Shown here in pieces: positions 9,919-13,376 of a DNA stretch of 64,000 nucleotides (positions within the stretch are counted from its first letter, which is position 1; each line of letters starts with the position of its first letter). The DNA comes from Rhizophagus irregularis (taxonomy: Eukaryota; Glomeromycota; Glomeromycetes; Glomerales; Glomeraceae), in contig NC_089450.1 of NCBI RefSeq assembly GCF_026210795.1, positions 2,046,001 through 2,110,000 on the forward strand, written 5' to 3'. The notes under the pieces were generated by a model. That model saw only the letters and a program-made list of their open reading frames with translations. It had not been told where the DNA came from and did not search any database. The position numbers and the translations under genes are program-made.

Positions 9919-10170
9919 AATTAATTAATTTAATGTTTTACAACATCTTTATGTATATAATAACGTAAATTTGATAGACGCAGTCCGCAGTTTTTAACGT
10001 AATACAGTAATACATTTTCAAAACCGCAGTATTGTTCGTTCTGGTTCGTGTTAATACTTAAGAATAATTACATACGTTTCTAATAAATCTAAGCGAAGAA
10101 GTAAAAGATAATAATTCTTTGAATTCTAAATATGTATATGATCAGAAATTACAATGTGAATTACTGCGTA

Positions 10171-10317
10171 GATGTTAGATCCGGTATTCGATACTCGAAT
10201 TTAAATCCAGATGGAACGAAGAAAACCGGATTTATCATGTCTAGATAACCGAAGGAACCCCGGATATAAATCCGAAGGATTCGATATAAGTTACTATAAA
10301 ATAAATCCGGTTCTAAA
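10171..10317. mobile_element. 147-bp MITE with target duplication and empty site
   Basis: Flanked by direct repeats TACTGCGTA at 10162-10170 and 10318-10326. The inner ends TTAGATCCGGTATT and AAATCCGGTTCTAAA are approximate inverted repeats. Copy 2 of the duplication reads straight through TACTGCGAAATTCAAT at 63841, a ready-made empty site. An 8-9 bp duplication suits a hAT-type insertion. Confidence 0.8.
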
Positions 10318-10451: not shown

Positions 10452-10483
10452 ATAGTCCTGAGGGGTCCAGGTTCTTTGTCTTT

Positions 10484-10493
10484 ATATATAAAA
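10484..10493 (+). promoter_or_regulatory. TATA-like element of INTS9
   Basis: TATATATAAA lies about 150 bp before the proposed start codon at 10644, just after the CACGTG pair and before a GC-richer stretch that may be 5' UTR. Position is plausible for a fungal core promoter; AT richness makes chance matches common. Confidence 0.4.
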
Positions 10494-10643: not shown

Positions 10644-13376
10644 ATGAAATTGGTAATTGTTTATTTTTATATCAGTGAATTAAATTAATTAAACTGATTA
10701 TTATTATCATTTTTTAAAATTAGCATCCGTTAAGTCGTAACTTAAGAAGAAATTGTTTTTTAATCAAATTAATGCAAATGAATATATTAATAGATTGTGG
10801 ATTAGATACTTCTTACTTTTTAGAATTTCCACCTCGTGATATTATCGGGTCAAAAGCACAACAACATGCATCAGTTTCTGTTGAAGTTTCTTCCAATATA
10901 TCAGATCATTCGGATCATACATCATCTTCTAATGATGCTATATTAGAAAATAAAGAAAATGATAAGAAACGTCGTAAATTGGATCATCTAATTGATTCAA
11001 CTGGTGATGGTAGTGGAGGTGCAGGTGGTGGAGTTCGTCGGCGTGGTCAATTTTTAGTGGAAACTCCTGAATTTAGTAGCATCGATTGGAATATTATTGA
11101 TTTCATATTTATTACCAATTATAATCATATGTTAGCTTTACCTTATATTACTGAATATACTAATTTCAAAGGAAAGATTTACGCTACAGAGCCTACAGTT
11201 TTATTTGGACGGTAAAATAATTTTTAAATATCAAAAATTATTGAATCTAGTATATTTATTTATTTATCATATTTTTTCTTTTATAGACAGATGATGAAGG
11301 AATTGGTGCATTTCTTTGGTGATAGTGTACTTAAAAGTCGAACACATTCACAACCTGGATCTACGAATATTTTTACCGGTGTCACTGCAGACTGGAATGT
11401 TGCACGATCTTTATATTCAATAGCAGACATTCAATCTTGTATTGATAAAGTAAGACCTGTAAGATTTGGTGAACATCTGGTGAGTTTCGCTGATACACAT
11501 ATTTTCAGTAATTTTTTTTTTTAATATAATTCTAACATACTCAATAGAATTTATATGAACTCGAAGTTACTGCATATAGTTCAGGTTATTGTCTTGGTAG
11601 TGCTAATTGGATGATTGATTGTGGAGGTGAAAAGGTAACTTAACATTAAAGATATGGATATGTTACTTAATTAATTATTTACTTATTATAAGAAAAAAAT
11701 TGAATCTTTTTTAATAGATTAGTATAGTGTCATCATCATCCACGGTACAAAATATACATCCTTTACCTTTTGATGAGACGGTATTAAATAATGCTGATGT
11801 TATCATTCTTAGCGACTTGCGTGATAAGGATGGAGCTAGATTTGAAACCATTCTTATTGAAATTGGAAATTGTGTTGGTACGAATAAATATAATTTAAGT
11901 TTAGCATGATTTAATAACATTCTTTTAAATATTATAACTAATTAATTAATAATTATAATTATTAGCCAACACTCTAAAAAATAAAGGAAATGTTTTATTC
12001 CCCTGTACGATGAATGGAATTATTTTTGATATAATAGGTTTTTTGAGTCAACATCTAAGGGCCGTAGGATTACGTGGTATTCCCTTCTATGCAGTATCTC
12101 CTATAGCTGAGGAATCCCTCAAATATTCTAATATATGTGGGGAGTGGTATGTTAATTAACTGGGAAAAACTTCGATAAATGATCATTTTTCTGAAAAATT
12201 TTTTATACAATAATTGATTGATATTAATAATGGAACAAGAACCAGATATTTGTTAATACTATCTTTATGTCATTAGGATGTGTACCGAGAGACAGCAAAA
12301 AATGTACTTGCCAGATAATCCGATGCATCATCAAGACATGATTGAGCAATCGTTATTATATTATGCATCTAGGGCTGATAGTTCATTACAGGAAAAATAT
12401 CAGGAACCATGTGTTGTCTTCGCTGGACATCCGTCATTACGTAGTGGTGCAGCCATTAATTTCATTAGAAAGTGGGGAAATAATTCAAACAATTCAATAA
12501 TATTTACAGGTTTGTACATTGTAATAATTATTATTATATTACTTTTTCGCGTGATTAATTAATGAAAAATTTAAAAAGAATCCGAGTATGATTGTGAGGA
12601 GGCGATGTCAGCGTTTGAAGGTTTACAAATAAAACCTATATATCTTCCAATTGACATTCGATTAACAATCAATGAGGTAACAAATATACTGAGAGAAAAG
12701 AAACCTCAACATGTTTTGATTCCTCAAAAGATTATAAAAGAATCGGGAAATATAAGGCCAAATTTACCGAACTCATTGATTACTTTATATGAGTGTTTAG
12801 ATATCGTTAATATTTCTATTAATTCACAATTTGTCAGGACTGTTATGACAGAAAATGTAAGTTTGATGTTTAATAATTATTTACACATGATTTGTCTGAA
12901 TTCTCTAATAAAATAGTTTTATTGTTATTTAAGCTTGCTTCAAATATTGAATTGGTTAATCTTGGAAAAGATTCGCTAATAGCATCATTGAATGGAACAC
13001 TTAATATTCATAATACAAAAACATCATTAACTTCAGCGGAAAATCAATTAAATCAACAAAGATATGTTTGTGGGGAATTTGATGTCTCAAAACTTATTAA
13101 TGAATTAACTGAACAAATAGTAAGTTTTTAAACAAAATAAAATCTTTATTTTTTTTAATAATAAAATATATTAATAATTTTCTTTAATTTTATTAGTATG
13201 GATGTAGAATAGATGAATTTGAAGAAGATAAGAGAAATTCAAGTTATAAAATTAGTTTAATATCCCCAAAAGCAACGATTTATTTGAATAATGAAAATTT
13301 TAAAATTATTACAACTGATAATCAAACTAGGATTAAATTGACAAAGATCTTGATCGAACAATTAATCGTATTATGA
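10644..13376 (+). CDS. INTS9: Integrator complex subunit 9 (ten exons, about 664 aa)
   Basis: INTS9 pairs with the endonuclease INTS11 in the nuclear Integrator complex, which cleaves nascent snRNAs and promoter-proximal transcripts. Exons: 10644-10652, 10724-11211, 11287-11479, 11548-11634, 11718-11877, 11966-12146, 12277-12509, 12579-12856, 12934-13119, 13197-13376. All introns are GT-AG and all phases agree, giving 664 codons plus stop, close to the human 658 aa. Matching landmarks are ILIDCGLD (about residue 24), [65 protein letters not shown] and [11 protein letters not shown]. Where active family members have HxHxDH this protein has [10 protein letters not shown], so it should be catalytically dead, as INTS9 is. 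A Ser/Gly-rich insertion with KKRRK (about residues 50-110) may be a flexible nuclear-localisation segment. Exon 1 (MKL, 9 bp) and the intron-8 acceptor are inferred; CPSF100 is the alternative but fits less well. AATAAAG at about 13399 may be the poly(A) signal. Confidence 0.9.
12161..12210. mobile_element. MITE fragment inside INTS9 intron 6
   Basis: TGGGAAAAACTTCGATAAAT, then GATCATTTTTCTGAAAAATT, then TTTTATA, matches the middle and right end of the CCTATAAAA-type MITE at 37719-37828. Intron 6 is 130 bp while the other internal introns are 69-88 bp, so the fragment accounts for the extra length. Confidence 0.7.

Follow-up and report, generated by a model that had tools for sequence, protein, structure and literature searches.

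The occurrence of Integrator outside animals is not in itself new, since plants and some protists have Integrator-like subunits as well. In animals, INTS11 is the cutter of the complex and INTS9 its inactive partner, with INTS4 holding the pair and linking it to INTS7, as stated in passages of a 2022 review and of a structural study (PMC9006982, PMC7980224). The excerpt of the latter gives NYHC as motif 2 of human INTS9, and the authors of the structure term the protein a pseudoenzyme (PMC7980224). In the available part of the review, Integrator is described as metazoan-restricted, and the metazoan snRNA 3′ box is given as GTTTN0-3AAARNNAGA (PMC9006982). Among the matches listed in the open-licence literature we recognised no report of a fungal Integrator or of a fungal 3′ box. 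Moreover, the main text of the article on the Rhizophagus irregularis DAOM197198 assembly, in the portion available, describes 32 chromosomes and uses neither the word Integrator nor the word snRNA (PMC10234402). Database annotation of these fungal genes may well exist already. The window analysed here, a whole stretch of 64,000 nucleotides, carries an INTS9 gene that is itself an ordinary orthologue, its fungal setting being less ordinary. The initial annotation had guessed a host from Glomeromycotina, and rightly so, the host being R. irregularis, of a genus which we take to belong to that group.

The INTS9 gene of the window and its decayed duplicates

Rebuilt from the window letters, the predicted INTS9 coding sequence spans 1995 nt in ten exons (10644-13376, forward strand) and encodes 664 residues plus a stop, with nine introns of 68-130 nt, all of them GT-AG, and no frameshift across the 664 codons, which reproduces the ten-exon model of the initial annotation (Table 1). 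The least certain element is the 9-nt exon 1, which our home-made gene finder omitted, starting instead from an internal ATG. This exon is favoured because the N-terminus MKLHPLS was aligned by HMMER with MKLYCLS/MRLYCLS at INTS9 residue 1, and because exon 1 and its GT donor are present in seven of the eight aligned decayed copies described below (identical at nine of nine positions in six, at eight of nine in one), the eighth lacking this region. A search with Rfam at gathering score gave no match over the window. A repeat at 10064-10307, directly upstream of INTS9, recurs near one of the decayed copies (copy d; L006 111-370, 80% identity).

Table 1. Features of the predicted INTS9 gene (window coordinates).
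Feature	Position	Strand	Basis
TATATATAAA, possible INTS9 TATA box	10483..10492	+	sequence reading; role inferred
Exon 1 (MKL), 9 nt	10644..10652	+	gene model; MKL..LS aligned to INTS9 residue 1; kept in 7/8 decayed copies
Exon 2, start of metallo-beta-lactamase domain and low-complexity insert	10724..11211	+	gene model, Pfam, HMMER
NYNH, degenerate motif 2 (HxHxDH position)	11117..11128	+	gene model, HMMER alignment
Exon 3	11287..11479	+	gene model, HMMER alignment
Exon 4	11548..11634	+	gene model, HMMER alignment
Exon 5	11718..11877	+	gene model, HMMER alignment
Exon 6, beta-CASP domain	11966..12146	+	gene model, Pfam, HMMER
Exon 7, beta-CASP domain	12277..12509	+	gene model, Pfam, HMMER, genome beta-CASP search
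Exon 8	12579..12856	+	gene model, HMMER alignment
Exon 9, C-terminal region	12934..13119	+	gene model; HMMER alignment to one INTS9 chain stops here (residue 584)
Exon 10, C-terminal region to stop	13197..13376	+	gene model; no Pfam match

Two Pfam domains are recognised in the window protein, metallo-beta-lactamase at 38.4 bits (cut-off 27) and beta-CASP at 40.2 bits (cut-off 27.7). When HMMER was run against all solved chains, the top two were INTS9 (E = 4.9e-99 and 3.9e-93), clearly separated from the best chains of the CPSF73 type (9.1e-14), INTS11 (4.6e-11) and CPSF subunit 2, or CPSF100 (2e-7). In a tree of 12 rows and four beta-CASP families, in which the yeast CFT2 row (CPSF100-type) was flagged as a long branch, each family formed a single group and the window protein fell with INTS9 at 100/100 and not with CPSF100, so that the identity first proposed for the gene was upheld. 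At the HxHxDH position (residues 135 onward, window 11117 onward) motif 2 is lost and the protein reads NYNH, a site aligned by HMMER to NYHCMMALPY and NYLNMLALPY of two INTS9 chains; the active-site replacement seen by the initial annotation is thus a degenerate motif 2. For the last 80 residues, where a putative domain for dimerisation with INTS11 would lie, Pfam gave no match, and the printed alignment to INTS9 stops short of them at residue 584, although its envelope reaches chain residue 650.

The window protein has 89 matches in the genome, and related places were counted from 30 of these match rows, chosen to span all of them, with pieces less than 2.6 kb apart being merged. This gave 19 INTS9-related places: besides the window, its chromosome holds 11 more (nine of them at 2.87-3.07 Mb), and seven lie on other chromosomes; the places outside the window (L004-L020) lie on contig C22, mostly at 2.87-3.07 Mb, and on C5, C7, C8, C10, C11, C13 and C15. 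All eight copies that were aligned carry frameshifts and stops; each has between 2 and 29 indels in its coding sequence, of which between 2 and 22 have a length not divisible by three. The remaining places are known from partial matches only, and the window gene is the only intact copy seen. Intron positions persist in the eight broken copies, most with GT and AG kept, and on this ground an origin as retrocopies was rejected. Several copies start near window 10488 or 10540, which raised the idea of capture by a mobile element; as the similarity of some copies extends into the flanks of the gene, this is disfavoured relative to plain segmental duplication. One copy is apparently split across opposite strands (L004 and L005). 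Between the window gene and the two youngest aligned copies, non-coding sequence has the highest rate of mismatches, and among codon positions the third has the most (in copy d the four rates, for codon positions and non-coding sequence, are 0.9, 1.5, 3.2 and 5.2%), a bias that fits descent of the copies from a gene under constraint; the four rates are almost level in the oldest aligned copy. The genome beta-CASP search revealed extra copies for INTS9 only, although it caught just two INTS9 copies and is a weak test for other genes.

Two other readings of the gene have to be weighed against this background. CPSF100 and INTS9 have a common fold and are both inactive beta-CASP partners, which could make the window protein a divergent CPSF100 acting in mRNA polyadenylation; we give this practically no credence, given that a separate CPSF100 is present in the genome (matching the solved CPSF2 chain at E = 4e-172), a finding that together with the weak match to the CPSF100 chain and the tree excludes this identity, already refuted at the sequence level. 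It is also very improbable that the window copy is another dying duplicate in an organism without a working INTS9, as the 18 other related places and the uniformly broken aligned copies might suggest: its nine introns and 664 codons are intact, and its mismatches to the two youngest copies are those expected for a constrained gene.

Further Integrator subunits in the genome

The R. irregularis genome searched comprises 146.7 Mb in 32 contigs, and the beta-CASP search returned seven matches: INTS11 (C19), CPSF73 (two, C10), CPSF100 (C19), the window gene and two decayed INTS9 copies. Models came from the home-made gene finder, whose training was partly on INTS9, INTS11 and CPSF73, with CPSF100 outside the training set; by these models and the tree, CPSF73 and CPSF100 are genes of their own, distinct from INTS11 and INTS9. 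The INTS11 model (623 residues) presents the catalytic motif HFHLDH, matches INTS11 at E = 1.4e-243 versus 1.2e-101 for CPSF73, and carries IntS11_C over the cut-off. The INTS4 model (815 residues, E = 1.2e-105, INTS4_C 127.9 bits) aligns from residue 12 to 807 with chain residues 142-959 of 963. Both of the partners that the initial annotation had proposed to seek in the same genome are therefore present, and the search for further subunits recovered INTS7 (E = 9.4e-34 to its solved namesake, INTS7_N 211 bits), INTS2 (E = 7.4e-49 to its solved namesake, 303 bits, covering only profile positions 426-1041 of 1050) and INTS3 (Ints3_N 204 bits). In the raw genome searches with Pfam, INTS2, INTS4 and INTS3 exceeded the cut-offs and INTS7 appeared as three collinear pieces below its own; once gene-modelled, all four exceeded them.

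These matches indicate that the cleavage module of INTS4, INTS9 and INTS11 is encoded, together with INTS2 and INTS7. INTS3 is weaker evidence for Integrator because its animal counterpart also occurs in a DNA-repair complex. The subunits sought were INTS1, 2, 3, 4, 7, 8, 9 and 11. Domains of INTS1 (PF12432, PF22929) and of INTS8 (PF25756), which belongs to the phosphatase/shoulder module, found no match in the genome, but these are weak probes for which no control gave a signal, and absence is not implied. If vertically inherited, the cleavage module of this arbuscular mycorrhizal fungus would have been present in the common ancestor of animals and fungi, and its absence in other fungi would then be a loss.

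A downstream box and an upstream element at snRNA genes

Rfam located seven U2 and three U1 places, from which the six U2 over the gathering score (one internally deleted) and the three U1 were used, all nine found without recourse to the box. In each of them AGCGGGTT(N0-2)GGG starts 9-17 nt past the 3′ end given by Rfam, and CCCATAAT lies upstream at -54 to -69. The independent cases are fewer than nine, because four U2 genes cluster in less than 8 kb, in both orientations (C3:4768382-4775702). Two U4 loci, found via the box search, named by Rfam and left unnamed by the earlier searches, show the box at a distance of 13 nt from the RNA, and neither has an exact CCCATAAT upstream. U1 and U2 are different RNAs that share one downstream element: without the box, 15 of 18 comparisons of their 3′ flanks give an identity of 37-58% across the aligned columns, and the three higher values (0.70, 0.70 and 0.83) are taken as an effect of gapped alignment in short AT-rich stretches. 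The metazoan 3′ box consensus was found within 80 nt at none of the 11 snRNA loci. Altogether, the U1/U2 elements look like a 3′ box plus a PSE, the arrangement served by Integrator in animals, the sequence of the box being different. At another locus (L055), a U1-like fragment (TTGCTGACATTGCACAGC, by eye) is followed by its own box and is probably a truncated U1 copy.

Genome-wide, AGCGGGTTN{0,4}GGG occurs 141 times, versus 25 for the reversed pattern, part of the excess coming from dispersed repeats with AGCGGGTTCGGG units and with AGCGGGTTGGGCCC. In one of these repeats (e.g., C1:1431374-1432506 and C3:4740298-4741430), AGCGGGTTCGGG units are spaced by 36 nt and an AGCGGGTTGGG lies some 1 kb away from them. 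The box sites examined came from 40 stretches with 42 matches, seven belonging to one repeat type and 35 others. At 20 of the 35 non-repeat sites CCCATAAT lies 100-300 nt upstream, where base composition predicts 0.0039 per site (about 0.14 in 35); on the opposite strand it was found at none of the 35, and upstream of none of the seven repeat-type matches. These 20 sites are not independent, because many are copies of a few families.

Eleven unannotated box loci could be aligned (L037, L040-L042, L044, L049, L054, L056, L059, L061 and L062), with CCCATAAT 187-192 nt upstream in nine, at 153 in another and without an exact match in the last. This family has no Rfam match at gathering score and is a candidate new small RNA. 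A conserved structure for it was dropped, as covariation is weak (two-sided changes in 5 of 42 pairs, with the covariation term at just -0.2 kcal/mol) and part of the predicted pairing overlaps the box. Box sites also occur in arrays (C5:1701628-1718198 with 16 sites, C11:2501289-2504860 with four, C13:4908541-4910729 with three), spaced mostly by 0.7-1.3 kb, the C5 array holding both orientations within 17 kb; seven matches were retrieved from these arrays, six of them preceded by CCCATAAT at 100-300 nt, and the five of 16 C5 sites viewed match no Rfam family. In permissive mode, Rfam named none of 16 box-bearing stretches convincingly, its best match having E = 0.076 and 27.6 bits versus a gathering score of 70. 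Further box loci have RNA-like bodies (L039, L053, L058, L066, L043 and L065), three of which, L039, L053 and L058, have a CGTATGGTTGG stretch in common. The box can serve as a query for further small RNA genes.

A proposed fungal Integrator and its relation to described systems

We hold with high confidence that the window gene is the R. irregularis orthologue of INTS9, the sole intact copy seen, and most likely the inactive partner of INTS11 in an Integrator cleavage module. INTS9 has lost, and INTS11 has kept, motif 2 of the metallo-beta-lactamase/beta-CASP fold; with INTS4, the two would form a module docked via INTS7 and INTS2. We infer that these proteins assemble into a fungal Integrator, which would cut the nascent pre-snRNA near the AGCGGGTT element, with AGCGGGTT(N0-2)GGG, common to the U1, U2 and U4 loci examined, as the putative signal setting the cut. 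Chances are about even for a broader proposal, in which R. irregularis would keep an snRNA-type system lost in better-known fungi, in which Integrator would read a new 3′ box (AGCGGGTTNGGG) and a PSE (ATCCCATAATT) would lie upstream. Beyond U1, U2 and U4, this system would drive a larger set of unannotated small RNAs, as the 20 of 35 non-repeat sites with CCCATAAT upstream suggest.

The snRNA 3′ ends of budding yeast are made by RNase III. Another nuclease could likewise make them here, with INTS9, INTS11 and INTS4 working mainly in premature termination at mRNA genes, a role that exists in animals according to part of the 2022 review (PMC9006982). The difference between the fungal element and the metazoan box would suit this reading, which we nevertheless regard as quite unlikely, since the element starts 9-17 nt past three different RNAs, as expected of a cleavage signal, and is accompanied by a PSE-like element at U1 and U2. 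Position and sequence alone do not distinguish an RNA from a DNA signal, and two unannotated box-bearing families have T-runs immediately before the element, so that it might be a DNA-level terminator or a factor site unrelated to Integrator. Such a site is unlikely, since U1, U2 and U4 are normally products of RNA polymerase II and this genome has retained the Integrator cleavage module. Should the element be instead an Integrator cleavage signal, the fungus and animals would use different words for it, with the same complex reading both. As the element is shared among snRNA genes, 3′ end formation of snRNAs in such fungi becomes directly testable.

Compared with metazoan INTS9 (7sn8_I and 7bfp_A, which we take to be the fly and human chains), the fungal protein is alike in length (664 versus 654 and 658 residues), in its MKL..LS start, in domain order and in the loss of motif 2, with 41% identity over 353 columns to a segment of 7bfp_A. 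It differs in a low-complexity insert at about residues 45-115, in the final 80 residues, which remain outside the HMMER alignments, and in the motif itself, NYNH in the fungus versus NYHC in the human protein. Like the metazoan Integrator, the fungus has INTS11, INTS9, INTS4, INTS2, INTS7 and INTS3, whose orthology is established by sequence comparison, whereas weak probes made of single domains detected neither INTS1 nor INTS8. The downstream element shares with the metazoan 3′ box a position soon after the U1, U2 and U4 RNAs, but its sequence, AGCGGGTT(N0-2)GGG, is another. The DUSE of Dictyostelium has the letters CCCATAA. Like the upstream element described here, it precedes small RNA genes by about 60 nt, and in groups 1 and 4 it has a run of three C (PMC7919456). 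Unlike the DUSE, the upstream element described here belongs to a fungus; at U1 and U2 it is seen together with a downstream element.
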